Origin: Methylobacter sp.
Lineage (GTDB): Bacteria > Pseudomonadota > Gammaproteobacteria > Methylococcales > Methylomonadaceae
Reading direction: 5' to 3'
DNA length: 64,000 nucleotides
NCBI GenBank assembly: GCA_028716975.1
Contig: JAQUOU010000005.1
Span: forward strand, 62,001 to 126,000
Shown one piece after another: positions 39,272-48,614 of this stretch. The translations under genes and the position numbers were made by a program. Positions within the stretch are counted from its first letter, which is position 1. Each line of letters starts with the position of its first letter. Under the pieces are notes generated by a model that saw nothing but the letters and a program-made list of their open reading frames with translations, was not told where the DNA came from and searched no databases.

Positions 39272-41098
39272 TTAATTGAGATCTTCATGGCTTCCGTCGG
39301 TTCGGATATCTTCCCGTAAGATACGCTCCATTTCCTGCGATGCTTGACGTGCAAAGTTAATCATTTCCGGTTCCTTCTCAAAAAATTTAAACGATGTCAG
39401 CAGGGTTTGCTCGTCATGTTTCATAAACCGTATGGCTTGGTAACGCATATCCGATTCGCTCTCTCCCATGAACTTCATAACCTCCTGCGCCATGGTAAGC
39501 GAAGAATCGAAAGTCTCGCGGCGGAAATAATCTATGCCGGCTTTATCAAGTTCATAGGCATGTCGGCGGTTGCGGGCACGCGCGAAGATTTTGAGATTGG
39601 GAAAGTGGGCTTTTGATTTGCGCACAATCTCAAGGCATTTATCCGCATCATCTACGGCCACGATCAGCAGTATGGCTTTATCCGCGCCTGCATTGCGCAG
39701 TATATCCAGCCGCGAGGCGTCGCCGAAATAGCCCTTCTGGCCGAATTTGCGTAATAAATCAATCTGGTCCGGATCTTTTTCCAGAATAGTGGTTTTAATT
39801 CCCTGCGCTTTCAGAAATCGCCCGATAATTTGCCCGAAGCGGCCATATCCGGCAATAATAACGGAATTGCTGCTTTCATCAATCGTGTCGTATTCGCGCT
39901 CAGGCAACAGGCTCATAAAACGCGGCTGAATAAAGCGGTCATTGAAAATCATCACAAAAGGCGTAGCCGCCATCGATGATGCCACGGCCAACGTCAGAAA
40001 CGCCGACTGCTCGCTAAGGATGACGTGCAACCCGCTCGCATATTGAAACAAAACAAAAGCAAATTCACCGCCTTGCGCCAAAGCGAGAGCAAACAGGGCG
40101 TTTTGCGGACCATCCAGGCCAAAAACCTTGCCAAGCACAAATAAAATTATAGCTTTGCTAATAATCAACGCCATTACTGCAGCAATCAAACCGGCTGGAT
40201 TCCCGGTCAGCAAACTAAAATTCATTCCCATTCCGATGGAGATAAAAAACAGCCCTAGCAACAATCCCTTAAATGGCTCAATATCGGTTTCCAGCGACTG
40301 TTTATATTCCGAATCGGCAAGCACCACGCCGGCGACAAATGCGCCCAGTCCCGGAGAAACCCCTACAACTTCCATTAATAGCGTAATTCCGACGACAAGA
40401 GCCAATGATGCCGCCGTGAATACTTCACGCAGATTGGTTTTGGCAATAAAGCCGAACAGGTATTGAGACAAATAGCGCCCTGTCACTATCACCAGCGCAA
40501 TCACGAGAGCAATGACCAGCGTATGTGCATAAGCAGGGAGATGGGAAATCCAGCCCGTCTGATGAGTCTCGGGTTCAATGCCGGGCGCCGCCAAAAGCGG
40601 CATAAGAATCAAAATCGGGATAACAGCGATATCCTGAAACAAAAGTACTGCGAAACAGGATTCGCCGGCGGAAGTTTGCAGCAAGCCTTTTTCCTGAAGC
40701 ATTTGCAACACTATCGCGGTTGATGACAGCGGCAATGCCATACCGCAAGCAAGACTTACGCGCCAGTCAAAGCCAAGCATTATTCCAAATGCCGTAAATA
40801 AAATACTGGTGACGCAGACCTGCAAACTACCCAAGCCAATAATTAATTTTCGTAGTTCCCACAGTTTTGCAGGTTCCAGCTCCAGACCGATCATAAACAA
40901 CATCATTATTACGCCGAACTCAGCAAAACTCATGATTTGCAAAGAATTCCCGATTAAGCAGATACCAAATGGACCAATGAGCACACCCGCAGCCAGATAA
41001 CCCAGCACCGCGCCAAGCCGAAAGCGGCTAGCCAGCGGCACCACTAGGCAGGTGGCGATGAGGAAAATAAATGTATTGAACAAAAATCCATTATCCAT
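39272..41098 (-). CDS. Kef-type K+/H+ antiporter
   Basis: A 608-residue CPA2 protein. The N-terminal ~380 residues carry about a dozen transmembrane helices (ALVVGITLLMEVVGVSPGLG, GAFVAGVVLADSEYK, LALAQGGEFAFVLFQ), followed by an RCK/TrkA-N domain (VIIAGYGRFGQIIGRFLKAQ, EKDPDQIDLLR, KGYFGDASRLDILRNAGAD). The last ~100 residues form a TrkA-C-like helical region. KefB/KefC exchange K+ for H+ and are gated by glutathione adducts under electrophile stress. No ancillary kefF/kefG gene is adjacent, so KefB/KefC/YbaL cannot be separated here. Confidence 0.88.
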   Translation of the reverse strand: MDNGFLFNTFIFLIATCLVVPLASRFRLGAVLGYLAAGVLIGPFGICLIGNSLQIMSFAEFGVIMMLFMIGLELEPAKLWELRKLIIGLGSLQVCVTSILFTAFGIMLGFDWRVSLACGMALPLSSTAIVLQMLQEKGLLQTSAGESCFAVLLFQDIAVIPILILMPLLAAPGIEPETHQTGWISHLPAYAHTLVIALVIALVIVTGRYLSQYLFGFIAKTNLREVFTAASLALVVGITLLMEVVGVSPGLGAFVAGVVLADSEYKQSLETDIEPFKGLLLGLFFISIGMGMNFSLLTGNPAGLIAAVMALIISKAIILFVLGKVFGLDGPQNALFALALAQGGEFAFVLFQYASGLHVILSEQSAFLTLAVASSMAATPFVMIFNDRFIQPRFMSLLPEREYDTIDESSNSVIIAGYGRFGQIIGRFLKAQGIKTTILEKDPDQIDLLRKFGQKGYFGDASRLDILRNAGADKAILLIVAVDDADKCLEIVRKSKAHFPNLKIFARARNRRHAYELDKAGIDYFRRETFDSSLTMAQEVMKFMGESESDMRYQAIRFMKHDEQTLLTSFKFFEKEPEMINFARQASQEMERILREDIRTDGSHEDLN

Positions 41099-41413: not shown

Positions 41414-41568
41414 GTAACTATTCAGCGCGAAGAATAGTCCCTTCTCCTTCGAGGGAGAAGGTTAGGATGAGGGGGATTAAAATAAAGCATTTTGCCTTGT
41501 TTTAAATTCCCCCTCGCCAAAGCCCTCTCCCCCGGAGAGGGCTTTGGCGTATTGCGCTAAATAGTTAC
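41414..41568. mobile_element. 155-bp MITE-like element with TIRs and 8-bp direct repeats
   Basis: The ends are 15-bp inverted repeats: GTAACTATTCAGCGC at 41414-41428 and its near-perfect complement GCGCTAAATAGTTAC at 41554-41568 (one mismatch). Immediately outside, AAAAAATA occurs on both sides (41406-41413 and 41569-41576), an apparent 8-bp target-site duplication. Inside are two hairpins: CCCTTCTCC...GGGAGAAGG and CCAAAGCCCTCTCC...GGAGAGGGCTTTGG. No coding capacity. The tetrad of TIRs, direct repeats, small size and hairpins defines a MITE-like element; the A-rich target makes the duplication slightly uncertain. It lies upstream of the DUF4331 gene and could affect its expression. Confidence 0.75.
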
Positions 41569-41657: not shown

Positions 41658-43325
41658 ATGAAGATGCTAACAATAAAGAAAAAAAATTCTCTGATCGGAC
41701 TGCTAATTCTGAATTTCCTGCTTCCTTCCAGCATATGCACCGCTGCGGATCATAATGATCCTAATGCGATCAATTCAATCTTTGCTGATATTCCAACGAA
41801 TCCTGCCGACTTATACGATATGTTTGGTTTTCCCAGTGACGACAAGACTGATGGGGAAAAGGTCGTGGTGGCGCTAACCTTCGCTTCCATTCCAAAGGCC
41901 GGCGTGTTCGATACGGATTTGCTTTACCGCATCCATTTTGACCCCGATCCAAGAACAGGTCCGGCCATGCAGGATGAACACTCGCTGTCATCGATAGTTC
42001 AATACGCCAAGGCAGTCGGCAAAAAATACCTGGATTTTAAACCTTCCGAAGTAAAGGTAACATTCAACAAGGAAAATCAGGCGAAGGTTGACTTTATCGA
42101 TTTTCCGGGCGGCAGTTTTTCCAAAGTGATCCCAACCAATACAGTGACGACTATTCAATCGCCGGATGGCTATTCCATCAAAACCTTTGTCGGCGGTAGG
42201 GATGATGCTTTTTTCAATGACCTGCCGGGGTTTTTCAGGTCTATCAACTATGCGCCGCAGTTCTATCATATTCCTAATTCCATGAAAGATAAGAGGGAGT
42301 TGCCCATACCGAAAACTCTGATTGAGCTGGAAGGTAATACCCTGTTCAATTTCGACAAAAATAATCCCGATTTAGGCATCACGGTTAAAAAGGATTTACC
42401 TAAAGGTTCTCTAGGGTGGAACGGCAATAAGTTTCTCAAGGATGAAAACGGAAATTTTCGCTTTGTATACAGCGGTAAAGATGCCCGGGCCGGCGGAAAC
42501 GTCAATGCTATTATTCTGGAAATTCCCTTGAAATTTCTGACCAAGACGCCCGATCAGGACAGGATAGTCCGGACATGGGGAGAAAGTTGGGTATTGAAGG
42601 CAACCGCCAAAGCAGACTCCACGGCTGAGGAAAAACCCAATCTTTTTTCCGGACTTTTCAAAGCGGCTTGGGCGGGAGCGGCTCCTGCAGAAACCGGGTT
42701 CAATGATGACATAAAGAATTATAATAAAGTTGATGTAGACGGCGTTCCGTTCCTTGATGCAGCGCTTAATGAACGGGAGGATGACAGGCAAATGGCCAAT
42801 AATATCAAACTCTCTGAACATTACGTCAAGCGCTTCGCCCACCTCGGATGGGGATTCGGCCCTTCCATCAGTGCGTTAGGGCTAGGCACCTGTTTTGATC
42901 ATTCCAACTCCCCTGTCTCGGTGCATAAAACCTATAATCTCGCGATTAAAGCCTTTCCACGCGCGAAGAAATGTTTTTTTCAGCGCGTTAACATGCCGGA
43001 TAATTCCTGGAATGTGAAAAACCTGGATATCAAACCGCCCCGCACTTTCGAAATATTTATCCCCAATGTCGCATCCATAGATATGGATACGAACGGCACC
43101 TGGCCGTTCGGCCGCAGGCTTGAAGATCAGGTAGCCTCACGGTTTCTGGCGCTGTTCCTGGATATGGAAAAAGGCTGCGGCGGCAAACCCTGCAATCTGG
43201 AAACGTTAAGTGATCTCACGCTATGGGAGAAAGCGCCCATAGTGCCAAAAACCCCGCCTAATCCGTTGAAGAACGACAAGGATTTTCTCAAGGAATTTCC
43301 TTACCTGGCTGAACCCTGGCAATAA
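41658..43325 (+). CDS. Exported DUF4331 family protein
   Basis: About 555 residues. A signal peptide (MKMLTIKKKNSLIGLLILN to CTAADHN) precedes the DUF4331 body, beginning ADHNDPNAINSIFADIPTNP and ADLYDMFGFPSD, the family opening. Later regions include DGYSIKTFVGGRDDAFFNDL, VNAIILEIPLKFLT and DVDGVPFLDAALNERED. The family is exported and of unknown role. ATG 41658 is preferred because CGGAGG lies 7 bp upstream, giving a clean signal peptide; an in-frame codon 66 bp earlier is less likely. First gene of a three-gene run with a TPR protein and a HupE/UreJ-type protein. A 12-bp-stem hairpin follows. Confidence 0.85.
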   Translation: MKMLTIKKKNSLIGLLILNFLLPSSICTAADHNDPNAINSIFADIPTNPADLYDMFGFPSDDKTDGEKVVVALTFASIPKAGVFDTDLLYRIHFDPDPRTGPAMQDEHSLSSIVQYAKAVGKKYLDFKPSEVKVTFNKENQAKVDFIDFPGGSFSKVIPTNTVTTIQSPDGYSIKTFVGGRDDAFFNDLPGFFRSINYAPQFYHIPNSMKDKRELPIPKTLIELEGNTLFNFDKNNPDLGITVKKDLPKGSLGWNGNKFLKDENGNFRFVYSGKDARAGGNVNAIILEIPLKFLTKTPDQDRIVRTWGESWVLKATAKADSTAEEKPNLFSGLFKAAWAGAAPAETGFNDDIKNYNKVDVDGVPFLDAALNEREDDRQMANNIKLSEHYVKRFAHLGWGFGPSISALGLGTCFDHSNSPVSVHKTYNLAIKAFPRAKKCFFQRVNMPDNSWNVKNLDIKPPRTFEIFIPNVASIDMDTNGTWPFGRRLEDQVASRFLALFLDMEKGCGGKPCNLETLSDLTLWEKAPIVPKTPPNPLKNDKDFLKEFPYLAEPWQ

Positions 43326-43334
43326 CCCGGATGT

Positions 43335-43364
43335 CGGCAAACCGCCAATAGAGGTGGTTTGCCG
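43335..43364. terminator. Hairpin after the DUF4331 gene
   Basis: CGGCAAACCGCC and GGTGGTTTGCCG pair over 12 bp with one G-T wobble and a six-base loop, starting 9 bp after the stop codon. No strong T-run follows (CCTTCCTTCTT), so it may be an attenuator or mRNA-stabilising hairpin that sets the ratio of DUF4331 to the downstream genes. Confidence 0.5.
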
Positions 43365-43479
43365 GCCCTTCCTTCTTGAACCGATAGCTTGCAGTCATAC
43401 TACTTGAGCAAAACAGCTTAAGCCAATGCCTTGCAGCCGGTCTTAAAATCCTGCCTTTAATCCTGATTAACAGCCTATT

Positions 43480-44733
43480 GTGTTTATACGCTTTCTTAAA
43501 ATCTCTTTTTGCCTTGTTGTTGCTGTATTATCCATCCCTCTTACTGGCCTGACGGGATTGACTTCCACGGATTACCAACAGGAATTGGCAAAAATTGAAG
43601 GAGATATTTCTAGCTCGCGAAACGTGTCCGCCACTTCCACTGACAACCCTGAAATCTTATTGCGAACGGCTTACTTTTATTTCCTCAAGAGCTCCTTGAC
43701 AGGACTGGAACAGGACATGATAAAAGCAGGATGGGCATTCGATAAAGCTATTGAGGGCCTGCCAACTCCTGCCGATCTTTATCTTTTACATACGGCGTTC
43801 AATCTGAAACTGCACCGTCTGACAGAGGCCAAAGCTGATCTGGAAAAAATTACCTTCATGAGCGAAGACCCGAAATTCCAGGTATGGGAGGGGGATATTG
43901 ATGTTCAGGAAGGAAACTACCGAAGCGCCGAAACCATCTACCGGCACATTATTGAGCAGAAGCGCGACTGGGACAATCTTTCCCGTCTCGCTTATTTACG
44001 CTGGAAAACCGGGGATTTTGAAGGCGCCGACCACTTATATTCGGAAGCGGAAGAAGAAATTTCAGCCAAGGACATGCGTTCATTTGCCTGGGTAGAGTTG
44101 CAAAGAGGACTTATGGCTTTGAGCAGGGGCCACAATAAGACAGCATGGGCTCGCTACCAGCGGGCTGATCGAGCCTATTCCGGTTATTGGCTGGTCAAGG
44201 ACTACATGGCCGAATGGTTGGGTGCTCAACGGAACTTTGACGCGGCGATAGCGCTTTACCAAAAGCTTATCGTCTGTACGCCGCGGCCTGAACTATACCA
44301 GGCGTTAGGGGACTTATATGTGTTTATGGGCAAGCAGGCGTTAGCTCAGCCCTGGCATGACAAGGCGCTTGCGGCCTATTTGGATTCAGCCCTGCGTGGC
44401 GAGGTTCAGTATTATCATCATCTGGCTGCATTTTATGCGGATTCGCGCATGGATGGCGTTGAAGCTGTGAAATGGGCGCAAAAAGATATTGTGTTGCGAA
44501 AAAATGCAACAACTCATGATGCCCTGGCGTGGGCCTTGTATCGAAATGATCAATATCCTGCGGCTCTTGAGGAAATAAAAAAGGCATTGGCCGGCAACTG
44601 GCAGGATGCGCATCTTTATTTTCATGCAGCAATGATCCATTTAGCCGCAGGACAGATAATAGAAGGCAAAGGCTATTTGCAAAAAGCCGCCGAGATTAAT
44701 CCGCGCTACGATAGCTTTCATGTCCATCGCTGA
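43480..44733 (+). CDS. Exported TPR-repeat protein
   Basis: A 417-residue protein with a short hydrophobic N-terminus (FLKISFCLVVAVLSIPLTGL) and TPR repeats along the length, for example DNPEILLRTAYFYF, HRLTEAKADLEKITF, GNYRSAETIYRHII and RNFDAAIALYQKLI, ending with GQIIEGKGYLQKAAEIN. Start is a GTG at 43480 with no strong ribosome-binding site. Probably a periplasmic scaffold. It overlaps the HupE/UreJ gene by 14 bp, so they are co-translated. Confidence 0.75.
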   Translation: MFIRFLKISFCLVVAVLSIPLTGLTGLTSTDYQQELAKIEGDISSSRNVSATSTDNPEILLRTAYFYFLKSSLTGLEQDMIKAGWAFDKAIEGLPTPADLYLLHTAFNLKLHRLTEAKADLEKITFMSEDPKFQVWEGDIDVQEGNYRSAETIYRHIIEQKRDWDNLSRLAYLRWKTGDFEGADHLYSEAEEEISAKDMRSFAWVELQRGLMALSRGHNKTAWARYQRADRAYSGYWLVKDYMAEWLGAQRNFDAAIALYQKLIVCTPRPELYQALGDLYVFMGKQALAQPWHDKALAAYLDSALRGEVQYYHHLAAFYADSRMDGVEAVKWAQKDIVLRKNATTHDALAWALYRNDQYPAALEEIKKALAGNWQDAHLYFHAAMIHLAAGQIIEGKGYLQKAAEINPRYDSFHVHR

Positions 44734-45901
44734 AGCTGTTAGCTTGACTGATTCCGGGAGACAGGGTAGAACTTGGAAGGACTTTTTCAGCGTTCAGGAA
44801 AAATCTCCCACTGTCACATGGTTTACCGCTTGTCTGTTCTTTTTGGCATACTTCTGTTCGCCTCCAACCGAGGCGCATCCAATCTCGCAGGGTGCTATGG
44901 AAATCAGGGTATTGTCAAACCGTATCGATCTGCGCGCGAGGGTTTCACGAGAAGAAGTTTTGGTTGCTACGGCCTTGGGAGGACAGGAAAATTCGGTTGG
45001 CCCGGAGGCCATTCGTAAACATGCTGAGTACCTGCTGGCTCATCTTCATATCAGCGCGAATGGGCAATCGCTGGCCGGACGAATAATTGAAGCACCTAAA
45101 AATTTTGCCGGATTACTCCCCTACCGGTTCGAGTATAGCCTGGAAGATGCAGCGCACAGGCGCATTGAATTTCGGCAGGACGTATTGCGTGAGTTCGAGT
45201 TTGCTCCCGGAAATGCGTGGGAGGCGAGCTATATCGTATGCATCATAGTGCATGATCAAATATCGGCCGAAGGTGTACTGTTTACTTTCAGTGAGCCTCT
45301 GGTATTCCAAAGTGACGGCATTGACGGGCCGGACCTCTTACGAAAAAGCATAGCATTTATACGGCATGGCATTGCCCATATTCTCAGCGGCTATGATCAT
45401 CTGCTCTTCGTCGGCGCGCTGGTATTGGCGGCAGCCGGCTGGTGGGATCTGGTCAAGGTGATTACGGCGTTCACGCTGGCTCATAGTCTTACCCTCACTC
45501 TTGCGGCCCTGGATATATTCCGACTATCCGCTGGGATTGTCGAACCCATGATCGCATTAAGCATCGTGGCCGCTGCCTTACAGAATATTTTGTGGCCCAT
45601 GCACAGCCGCGGCTGGGAACGACTGCTGCTGGCTTTCGGATTTGGATTGTTTCATGGCCTGGGTTTCGCGGGCGGCCTCCTCGATGCAATGTCAGACATG
45701 CAGCTAACCAGCGCCTTATTGGCAATAGCGGCGTTCAGCTTTGGGGTTGAAATCGGCCATCAGCTTGTAGTATTGCCGGCCTTTTACGGGCTAACTCTTC
45801 TGCGCCGCTTCAGCGCCGGGCAAAGCCGATATGCGCAACGTTACGGATCGGCCATGATTTCCCTGTTTGGGCTGGCCTATTTGTATATGAGTTTACGGTA
45901 A
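44720..45901 (+). CDS. HupE/UreJ-family membrane protein
   Basis: About 393 residues. A hydrophobic leader (WFTACLFFLAYFCS, about residues 34-47, then EAHP) precedes a ~170-residue extracytoplasmic domain, then six membrane segments with the family motifs: FIRHGIAHILSGYDHLLFV, FTLAHSLTLTLAALDI, FGLFHGLGFAGGLLDAM and GVEIGHQLVVLPAF. The His-rich motifs resemble nickel/cobalt permeases, so metal transport is possible; the substrate is unproven. The N-terminal start is uncertain: the annotated ATG overlaps the TPR gene by 14 bp and leaves ~30 residues before the leader. Last gene of the module. Confidence 0.75.
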   Translation: MSIAEAVSLTDSGRQGRTWKDFFSVQEKSPTVTWFTACLFFLAYFCSPPTEAHPISQGAMEIRVLSNRIDLRARVSREEVLVATALGGQENSVGPEAIRKHAEYLLAHLHISANGQSLAGRIIEAPKNFAGLLPYRFEYSLEDAAHRRIEFRQDVLREFEFAPGNAWEASYIVCIIVHDQISAEGVLFTFSEPLVFQSDGIDGPDLLRKSIAFIRHGIAHILSGYDHLLFVGALVLAAAGWWDLVKVITAFTLAHSLTLTLAALDIFRLSAGIVEPMIALSIVAAALQNILWPMHSRGWERLLLAFGFGLFHGLGFAGGLLDAMSDMQLTSALLAIAAFSFGVEIGHQLVVLPAFYGLTLLRRFSAGQSRYAQRYGSAMISLFGLAYLYMSLR

Positions 45902-46937
45902 GACAGCCATCGGAATAAGTTAAGATTTTGCAGTTTCTAACGCCCTGTCCTCCCCTCACTTCGACTATCGTCTATTTCGGGCAAGTTGACGTTTTTATTA
46001 GACTAATACAGTTGATACGAAACATTGTTATGATCAACTAAAACCCGATACTTCTTTAAGCCACATTACTATAAAATACTCACTCAAATTCCAATGGTGC
46101 TTGATAGCCTTACTTGAATGCGTGCGTTTGTCGTGGTAAAAGTCATCCATCAATAATGGTCAGCTTTGCCGTTTCTTGAGTTCTGAACTTTTCGTAAAAG
46201 GGTTCTAAGCCAAAACCCTCGGTATTTTTAAAATATTCTAAATCAATTAGTTAGTCTAATATAAGGGGACTAATATCTCTTCAAAGTCGATTGGGTTGTA
46301 AGTACTGGCTACCCCAGTCACTAGGATAGATAAGGTCCTCTGTATCGTTGCGCTTGCGCAACCAGAGCGCTTGTTCCCAGACGTTCAAGACTAAATCCGT
46401 CTGCACGGAACGGCTGACCTGCAGCCCACGATATAACGGGCAAAGACGTCACTGCTCTGTGAACAACTGGTCAACTTCTAATATGAGGTCATTTAGCATG
46501 GGGAAAATGATGATATTCGGTTGTTTTCACCCATTTTTAAGAAAACTATTTAGCTGTATTATTAGCTAAGTATATTATTTGTAAATAATTCTTATAATTT
46601 GGTATAGTAATTGCTCATAGGATTATGCCGACAACAATCAAATTTCAGTTAACCGGTCTCTATAATAATTAATTTTTTATCATTGAGTTAAAATAATTTA
46701 TAAATACTCAGGAGCAGGATAAAATCGGACTTCACCGTTCAGTAATTGACTTTTTAGAGGCTGTTAAAGAAGAAATAAGGCATTATACATAAAGGAAAAT
46801 ATTGAATTGTTTTCAAATAAGGTTAGAAAATCCAATAACCTGCTTGCCTATGCTAAATCAATTCATTCTCTCATATTGGGCAAATTGTACTGAGTTGTAT
46901 GATAGCTCAATCATTCACTCTAAAGGATCTTCGGAAC
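45902..46937. other. 1-kb non-coding region with IS3 relic ahead of arn operon
   Basis: Between HupE/UreJ and arnT. The part 46079-46470 holds decayed IS3-family transposase text (separate entry). The remainder is AT-rich, with a possible -10 TATAAT at ~46590 and degraded frames (LGLHRSVIDFLEAVKEEIRH at ~46730) that could not be assigned. The arn promoter should be here. Confidence 0.45.
46079..46470 (-). pseudogene. IS3-family transposase OrfB relic
   Basis: The minus strand shows IS3 OrfB text in broken frames: FARYIVGC, then VSRSVQTDLVLNVWEQALWL and DLIYPSDWGSQYL, matching the family VVGWRVSxxMxTDFVLDALEQALWxR...HHSDRGSQYLS block (second catalytic Asp). Further on, MDDFYHDKRTHS and GYQAPLEFE match the OrfB end (DDFYxRKRxHSxLGYxSPxEFE). 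At least three frame changes or stops. Upstream OrfA and the first catalytic Asp are not recognisable. It sits between the HupE/UreJ module and the arn operon. Confidence 0.75.
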
Positions 46938-48614
46938 ATGACAATATTATCTTGCCGTCAATGGCGGATGGGTGGCGCAATAATAGCACTGACTGGATTT
47001 ATATGGTTTCTTTTCCTGGGTTATCGTGACCTGATAGAGCCTGATGAGGGACGTTATGCAGAAATCGCACGAGAAATGCTGGCTTCCGGTGATTGGATTA
47101 CGCCGCATCTTAACGGATTCAAGTATTTTGAAAAACCGCCGTTGCAATATTGGGGCTCCGCGATCAGTATGGCCTTATTAGGTGAAACCAATACGGCCGC
47201 CAGAGTATGGTGTTCCGGACTCGGATTTATCGGCGCCTTATGGGTTGGGTTTGTAGGCAGCCGGGTTTATGGACGCAGTGCCGGTTATTTTGCATTCCTG
47301 TTTTTGATTAGCACAGTTCTTTATGTCGGCATGGGGCATGCCAATAGCCTGGATATGGGGGTGAGTACGCTACTGATTATCGCAGTCGGCGCATTGGTGC
47401 TGGCTCAGACAGAACGGCATTTACCCCAACAGGAGCGAAACTGGATGCTGCTGGCCTGGGCTGCGCTTGGCGGAGCAACGTTGAGCAAAGGACTCATCGG
47501 CCTGGTGCTTCCCGGCGGCGCGATTGTTCTGTATACCCTCTGGCAGCGCGACTGGGCGCTATGGCGTCACCTGCACCTGGGCAAGGGCTTGCTGGTCTAT
47601 TTATTGATTGCCGCGCCCTGGTTTGTGGCCGTCAGTTACTCAAATCCCGAGTTTCCCCATTTCTTTTTTATTCATGAACATTTCGAGCGTTATACTAGCG
47701 ATGTTCACGGACGCACCAAGTCCAACTGGTATTTCTTTGCCGTTTTTGCGATAGGAGCGATACCTTGGCTTTTTTCGTCGTTAAACGGCCTGATTAAGCC
47801 GCCTTTTTCCTGGCGAGCCGAAGCCGGAAAATTTGAAGCCTCACGCTTACTTTGGATTTATGCGATTTTCGTGTTCTTCTTTTTTTCGATTTCCCATTCC
47901 AAGTTACCGGGCTATATTTTGCCGATGTTTCCGGCATTGGCGCTGTTAGCCGGCGAGAATATGTCCAAGCGCAGACATTTTATTGCCGACGGTATTGCGG
48001 CTATAGTAATTGCCGCCGTTATATTCATTTTCTTTATCTGGAAAGCAGGTGATACTGCCAAGATTGCCGGTGATACTGCCAAGATTGGAAGATTAACATC
48101 AGACCTGATGCTGTTCCGTCCCTGGATTATGGCAATGGCTTTTTTAACAGGCGCGGCTGGTATTTCTACGCTAATGTTAAGGAATAAAAAAAATCTGGCT
48201 ATCTCTATTTTCGCTCTTTGCGCCTTACTTGGATTACAAATGCTTTCATGGGGCTATCAAAGTATCAGCGAATTTCGCTCCAGCCGGATTATGGTCAAAG
48301 CAATTCAATCCTACTTCGACAAGAGCGGCAAAGACACCGTGGAGATTTATGATGTTAATCGCTATGATCAATCGCTGCCTTATTATTTGGGCAGAACCAT
48401 TCACTTGGTTGACTATAAAGGTGAGCTGGAATTCGGGATTAACCAGGAACCCCAAAAATGGTTAAATAAAACAGATTTTCTGCCTGTATGGTTAAATTCA
48501 GACCAGGCAATAAGTATTCTGACTCAAAATATTTACGACCAATGGCATCAACAGAAAATTCCTATGCACACAATTTATGAAAATTCCCGTTATATCGCAG
48601 TGGCTCGCCGATGA
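46938..48614 (+). CDS. arnT: Undecaprenyl-phosphate-L-Ara4N transferase ArnT
   Basis: About 558 residues of a PMT/GT83 membrane glycosyltransferase that moves L-Ara4N from undecaprenyl phosphate to lipid A in the inner membrane. RDLIEPDEGRYAEIAREMLA carries the catalytic Asp/Glu of the first periplasmic loop, then LNGFKYFEKPPLQYWGSA. About 12 hydrophobic segments follow. Start 46938 (MTILSCRQW) is preferred over a codon 39 bp upstream. A 21-bp tandem duplication (48048-48089) gives two copies of GDTAKI in a loop. First gene of the arn run; overlaps the next gene by 4 bp. Confidence 0.87.
   Translation: MTILSCRQWRMGGAIIALTGFIWFLFLGYRDLIEPDEGRYAEIAREMLASGDWITPHLNGFKYFEKPPLQYWGSAISMALLGETNTAARVWCSGLGFIGALWVGFVGSRVYGRSAGYFAFLFLISTVLYVGMGHANSLDMGVSTLLIIAVGALVLAQTERHLPQQERNWMLLAWAALGGATLSKGLIGLVLPGGAIVLYTLWQRDWALWRHLHLGKGLLVYLLIAAPWFVAVSYSNPEFPHFFFIHEHFERYTSDVHGRTKSNWYFFAVFAIGAIPWLFSSLNGLIKPPFSWRAEAGKFEASRLLWIYAIFVFFFFSISHSKLPGYILPMFPALALLAGENMSKRRHFIADGIAAIVIAAVIFIFFIWKAGDTAKIAGDTAKIGRLTSDLMLFRPWIMAMAFLTGAAGISTLMLRNKKNLAISIFALCALLGLQMLSWGYQSISEFRSSRIMVKAIQSYFDKSGKDTVEIYDVNRYDQSLPYYLGRTIHLVDYKGELEFGINQEPQKWLNKTDFLPVWLNSDQAISILTQNIYDQWHQQKIPMHTIYENSRYIAVARR
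48048..48089 (+). repeat. 21-bp tandem repeat within arnT
   Basis: GGTGATACTGCCAAGATTGCC at 48048-48068 is followed directly by GGTGATACTGCCAAGATTGGA at 48069-48089; 19 of 21 bases are identical. It encodes GDTAKIA-GDTAKIG. A multiple of three, so the frame is kept. It sits after a transmembrane segment (FIFFIWKA) in a loop. Confidence 0.9.

Follow-up and report, generated by a model that had tools for sequence, protein, structure and literature searches.

A 64,000-nucleotide stretch of Methylobacter sp. DNA (contig JAQUOU010000005.1 of assembly GCA_028716975.1, positions 62,001 to 126,000; hereafter the window) carries three consecutive plus-strand genes, recognized by open reading frame (ORF) calls and domain profiles, that encode a DUF4331 protein, a tetratricopeptide repeat (TPR) protein and a HupE/UreJ_2 permease. 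This trio is real and conserved, and it is probably a metal-handling cassette. More specifically, we give a little better than an even chance to the reading that it constitutes a periplasmic cassette for the capture and import of a transition metal, most likely copper. The observations on which this reading is built are the gene content, the conserved adjacency, a set of invariant residues, the fold match of the permease ectodomain, and co-occurrence with a pair of redox proteins. Its new parts are the N-terminal site of the DUF4331 protein and the stable partnership of the genes, the putative importer being of an already known kind.

The original prediction for this DNA, made from the sequence of the window, had described three consecutive genes of which the last two overlap, and the ORFs and domains indeed lie at those places, with the TPR and HupE/UreJ_2 genes sharing 14 bp (44720-44733). 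It had also proposed checking whether DUF4331 co-occurs with HupE/UreJ_2 and TPR across genomes, and the adjacency proves to be conserved. In a sample of 151 genomes of the order, which contains 43 DUF4331 loci of any subfamily, a HupE/UreJ_2 gene is located within 5 kb of DUF4331 at 36 loci, versus 0.22 expected under uniform placement; among the seven remaining loci, two occur in genomes with no HupE match at all and one has a HupE gene 9.5 kb away. Elsewhere in Pseudomonadota, the full trio is present at 11 of 15 strong DUF4331 loci, and the same gene set is common to three DUF4331 subfamilies. The notion that these genes are chance neighbours could draw on a terminator-like hairpin in the 154-bp gap between the first two genes, owing to which the DUF4331 gene may be expressed partly apart, but it was rejected in view of the observed frequency of adjacency and its conservation in several phyla, and retains almost no probability.

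The match of the window protein to the DUF4331 profile is best over positions 144-240 of 421, and this partial coverage places the protein in a divergent subfamily. Such window-type DUF4331 proteins are rare: of 398 genomes sampled throughout the phylum, 1 has one. A scan with one genome per species recovered 11 window-type loci from Methylococcales, other Gammaproteobacteria, Acidobacteria, Thermoanaerobaculia and Verrucomicrobia metagenome-assembled genomes (MAGs); a TPR gene adjoins DUF4331 at all 11, and HupE is also close at four. Orthologues of the window protein in Methylococcales, Verrucomicrobia, Acidobacteria, Thermoanaerobaculia and Cellvibrio MAGs are 53-82% identical. Two genomes (G548 and G549) have a window-type DUF4331-TPR pair with no adjoining HupE gene, yet each encodes a window-type HupE elsewhere, which in G548 stands behind another DUF4331-TPR pair. 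At L133:2385-6695, a window-type HupE gene follows a DUF4331-TPR pair of a different subfamily, and parts of the cassette thus seem to be exchanged. The genome of the window itself contains a second, distant DUF4331-TPR-HupE/UreJ_2 set (L054:7292-10885 on C38), with a DUF4331 of the SDHADP type on the opposite strand. This paralogous trio is absent from the original prediction, as are the redox pair and the frequent lack of HupE in Acidobacteriota, both considered below.

By its modelled fold and predicted first residue, the permease is a new member of the anglerase kind of HupE/UreJ-2 permeases published in 2025 (PMC12537917). An AlphaFold2 model of the mature protein (predicted local distance difference test score, pLDDT, 87; predicted template modelling score, pTM, 0.84) places an Ig-like beta-sandwich before the permease, with strands spanning residues 5-12, 16-23 and 57-145 and helices between strands 2 and 3. 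The best Foldseek match of this ectodomain is the Cu-bound Ang-1 domain 9GCE of a HupE/UreJ-2 protein (E 1.1e-4), to which VIA-align superimposes model residues 1-147 with a Z score of 11.8 and a root-mean-square deviation of 3.5 over 132 aligned residues at 10% identity; the next matches are the Zn-binding proteins ZrgA and PA4063 (Z 8.4-10.0). The window protein therefore resembles Ang-1 (RbAng-1a) in its signal peptide, predicted mature His1, beta-sandwich and PF13795 permease, and differs from it in the low identity of the aligned ectodomain, which has no sequence-profile match. The available part of the anglerase paper makes no mention of a DUF4331/TPR cassette (PMC12537917).

A comparison of 27 diverse HupE/UreJ_2 proteins, covering the H, D, E, C, M, Y, K, R and W positions kept in 85% or more of them, yielded only eight, each present in 27/27: His1, His168, Asp174, His175, His203, Glu223, His260 and Glu292. 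All but His1 sit in the membrane part. An AXA-type site puts the first of these at predicted position 1 in 43 of 43 relatives, a comparison in which the sequences had been selected partly on the -1 residue but not on the -3 residue. His168, His175 and His203 have the same spacing as His194, His201 and His229, the modelled permease ligands of MmAng-2a in the anglerase paper (PMC12537917). His168 and His175 also lie in a sequence, HILSGYDH, that retains the His, Gly, Asp and His of the HPXXGXDH signature of HupE/UreJ nickel and cobalt permeases, with Ile in place of Pro (PMC7689651). The window protein is like those permeases in carrying HxxxGxDH at its first helices, and unlike them in lacking the Pro, in possessing an additional ectodomain, and in belonging to PF13795 rather than PF04955. 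Next to its gene, none related to hydrogenase, urease or B12 was seen.

ATCUN (amino-terminal Cu(II)- and Ni(II)-binding) sites, of which the DUF4331 protein has a candidate described below, bind Ni(II) too. The same capture-and-import cassette might accordingly serve nickel or cobalt, the metals of the HupE/UreJ relatives (PMC7689651), and Ang-1 itself binds nickel with a reported dissociation constant (Kd) of 220 nM (PMC12537917). We nevertheless regard this version as decidedly unlikely. The nearest solved ectodomain prefers copper (Kd 74 nM, same source), paralogous HupE/UreJ_2 genes of these bacteria reside in clusters with CopC, and an Rfam scan of the window found no family at threshold, including no B12 or other metal riboswitch. 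A search for PF02461, the particulate methane monooxygenase family that would signal copper demand, gave no match anywhere, controls included, and hence supports no conclusion.

Two observations concern other HupE/UreJ_2 proteins. The clusters just mentioned (L055:4633-8075, with similar ones at L056, L057, L059, L062 and L063) comprise genes for a BNR protein, CopC, a small unknown protein and HupE, and at L055 a TonB-plug protein is encoded downstream. At L054:9758-10885, L104:4770-5963 and L108:4682-5815, the HupE/UreJ_2 ectodomains contain an EF-hand-like loop (DTNDDSAITWGE in L054), absent from the window protein, that represents a possible calcium or lanthanide site.

A free N-terminus of the form X-X-His constitutes the ATCUN motif, which binds Cu(II) and Ni(II). 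The predicted mature N-terminus across DUF4331 proteins, A/S-D/N/S-His, has this form. Fair evidence for conservation comes from an untrimmed alignment (A2) of 15 proteins from three subfamilies, in which the corresponding residue of the window protein, His32, is invariant, whereas conservation in 87/87 sequences holds by construction, these having been trimmed on that motif. AXA-type cleavage would leave the His as the third mature residue in 46 of 46 leader-bearing DUF4331 proteins, the next-best position reaching 0.50. A crude cleavage scorer likewise predicts position 3 for 35 of the proteins to which it was applied, and Ala or Gly directly precedes X-X-His in 34 of 37 proteins of an outside set. 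The motif itself was found by pattern, and the cleavage is inferred. Among the orthologues that lack a signal peptide, those of L043 (with GAGGAGG ahead of the start) and L142, and possibly that of L039, begin with Met-Ala-Asp-His, so that removal of the Met would yield the same A-D-H end, and the DUF4331 protein of L243 starts Met-Ser-His-His.

The DUF4331 proteins are thus like ATCUN Cu/Ni sites (PMC7701195) in their predicted mature ends, and differ from them in that the site is predicted from sequence and belongs to a large conserved protein rather than being a peptide motif alone. They are also like the CopC and LPMO (lytic polysaccharide monooxygenase) copper proteins in being exported and in presenting an invariant His within the first few residues of the predicted mature protein; they differ in that this His is predicted at position 3 and not at position 1, and no CopC or LPMO domain was found. 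A Foldseek search with the DUF4331 model, whose pLDDT is 54, returned nothing significant. The term DUF4331 appeared in no paper found by literature search, and its metal-binding-looking N-terminus seems to have gone previously unnoticed. Upstream of DUF4331 genes of another subfamily, we also observed genes for an extracytoplasmic function (ECF) sigma factor and a ChrR-type cupin (L109:1863-3127) or for a cupin (L105:4402-5226).

Many window-type DUF4331 loci also contain genes for a di-heme cytochrome of about 850 aa (motifs CGFCH and CARCH) and a GMC flavoenzyme of about 630 aa. In the genome of the window these two stand side by side at L098:11345-15925 (C8), away from the window, and share 72% and 69% identity with the query copies. 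Of 7 genomes with window-type DUF4331, 6 have the cytochrome, compared with 18 among all 151 (hypergeometric P 8e-6, a value that overstates the association since related genomes are not independent). An initial assignment of this partner, sized at about 880 aa, as patatin-like was wrong, Pfam and the CxxCH motifs identifying a di-heme cytochrome, and its matches to the RoxA and oleate-dioxygenase families are weak. It is like RoxA/RoxB and the di-heme cytochrome c peroxidases in its two CxxCH motifs and a weak match to NF040606, and differs from them in its length and in a score of 30 bits, below the curated cut-off of 150.

These proteins suggest the main rival explanation, in which the secreted DUF4331 protein is itself a metalloenzyme and its N-terminal His contributes to binding a catalytic metal, with the GMC flavoenzyme and di-heme cytochrome of the window subfamily donating electrons, as cellobiose dehydrogenase does for LPMOs, and HupE only supplying or recycling the metal. 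The co-occurrence just described is consistent with such an arrangement, as are an operon in G622 with the order cytochrome, GMC, DUF4331, TPR, HupE, patatin, the twin-arginine-like leaders of two GMC relatives (L149 and L150), and the GxxDD, GRRxxD and FP motifs that DUF4331 proteins conserve in addition to the His. We judge it unlikely, however, given that the His is predicted at mature position 3 rather than at position 1 as in LPMOs, that neither the cytochrome nor GMC genes were seen with the majority of DUF4331 loci from other subfamilies, that the GMC protein usually lacks a signal peptide, and that the DUF4331 model has no fold match.

A further alternative dispenses with metal transport altogether and regards the trio as a module for envelope stress or lipid oxidation, in which DUF4331 and TPR act as periplasmic stress proteins and HupE/UreJ_2 as a sensor or membrane anchor. 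The sigma factor or ChrR-type cupin genes ahead of two other DUF4331 loci (L109 and L105) fit this picture, as do genes for patatin, alpha/beta hydrolase and old yellow enzyme close to the cytochrome-GMC pair. The polar residues that HupE conserves, though, are of metal-ligand types, and its ectodomain matches Cu- and Zn-binding domains; we consider this alternative improbable. The original prediction had spoken of a coherent envelope system for metal handling or surface display. Metal handling is supported by the conserved trio, the anglerase-kind permease and the invariant His at or near both predicted mature N-termini; for surface display, no anchoring or display feature was seen, and that part has no support.

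For the copper capture-and-import cassette, we infer the following mechanism. The exported DUF4331 protein would bind Cu(II), or Ni(II), through its free N-terminal A-D-His, while the TPR protein would act at the membrane as a scaffold for the partners. From DUF4331 the metal would then go to the permease, whose His1 ectodomain would receive it and pass it to a membrane path lined by the seven other invariant residues, through which it would be imported. The Cu(II) affinity of ATCUN sites is usually far higher than that expressed by the nanomolar Ang-1 values, and their hold on Cu(I) is poor; transfer may therefore need reduction. As speculation, the cytochrome and GMC proteins could supply the electrons, for example to convert Cu(II) to Cu(I). 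In a broader version, DUF4331 proteins would be a widespread family of periplasmic metallochaperones of the ATCUN type, delivering metal to an anglerase permease, and the GMC flavoenzyme and di-heme cytochrome of the window subfamily would reduce ATCUN-held Cu(II) to Cu(I), making the entire set a reductive copper-uptake pathway; this version seems to us distinctly doubtful.

Several points weigh against the capture-and-import reading. HupE is missing beside DUF4331-TPR in many Acidobacteriota, in whose sample DUF4331 usually has a TPR gene and HupE lies beside it in few cases. Decayed cassettes occur in two relatives, as HupE and DUF4331 pieces with one stop (L012, G148) and as HupE and TPR pieces with three stops (L013, G131), and the trio is therefore dispensable in this group. 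Signal-peptide cleavage of DUF4331 was judged by the AXA rule, and for the window protein the crude scorer places it one residue later, at Asp31; moreover, orthologues without any signal peptide exist. A domain that simply starts at the first residue would look similar to a conserved N-terminal His, and conserved residues near the leader are likewise present in the partner TPR family. Since the DUF4331 model is poor, His32 might rather belong to a buried active site that includes the GxxDD and GRRxxD motifs. Finally, the tie of the permease to Ang-1 is by modelled fold and His1 only, at the low identity given above, and the HupE family profile (A4) matched no PDB chain up to E 1, and so not 9gce.

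Features of the trio in the window
Feature	Coordinates	Strand	Evidence
DUF4331 protein, exported, divergent (ADHNDPN) subfamily	41658..43325	+	PF14224 49.9 bits (cut-off 27)
Predicted signal peptide of DUF4331 protein, residues 1-29	41658..41744	+	Hydrophobic leader; AXA-type site fits cleavage before Ala30
Ala30-Asp31-His32, predicted mature N-terminus A-D-H (X-X-His, ATCUN-type)	41745..41753	+	His32 invariance; AXA-type site
Terminator-like hairpin between genes 1 and 2	43333..43366	+	14-pair stem, 9 G-C, pyrimidine-rich tail; consensus match only
TPR protein with hydrophobic N-terminal leader, possible scaffold	43480..44733	+	TPR_2, TPR_19 and TPR_14 above cut-off
HupE/UreJ_2 permease, anglerase-type ectodomain	44720..45901	+	PF13795 127.1 bits (cut-off 24.5); AlphaFold2 pLDDT 87; best match 9gce
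Extracytoplasmic beta-sandwich domain of HupE, predicted start His1 (precursor His53)	44876..45325	+	VIA-align Z 11.8 to 9gce; His1 27/27
HILSGYDH, His168-X5-Asp174-His175 candidate metal signature, first membrane helices (mature numbering)	45377..45400	+	Invariance 27/27

The DUF4331 gene starts with ATG, has GGAGG upstream and encodes 555 aa, and the TPR gene starts with GTG and encodes 417 aa. The HupE/UreJ_2 gene, which starts with ATG, encodes 393 aa comprising a signal peptide, an ectodomain of about 150 residues and a modelled helical membrane part. The flanking genes, KefC-like (39272-41098, minus strand) and ArnT-like (46899-48614), are unrelated to the trio. An inverted-repeat-like stretch is present 5′ of the DUF4331 gene at 41430-41555 (CCCTTCTCC...GGAGAAGG, then CCCTCTCCCCCGGAGAGGG).

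With these results, DUF4331, a domain found in several phyla, gains a family-wide and testable prediction of an N-terminal metal site and a stable link to a newly described class of metal-capturing permease, and an uncharacterized domain becomes a concrete question: is Cu or Ni bound through the N-terminus and passed on? If the capture-and-import reading is true, anglerase permeases, whose published neighbourhoods consisted mostly of unknown proteins, would gain a soluble partner, and the cassette may show how such bacteria gather copper outside the cytoplasm.

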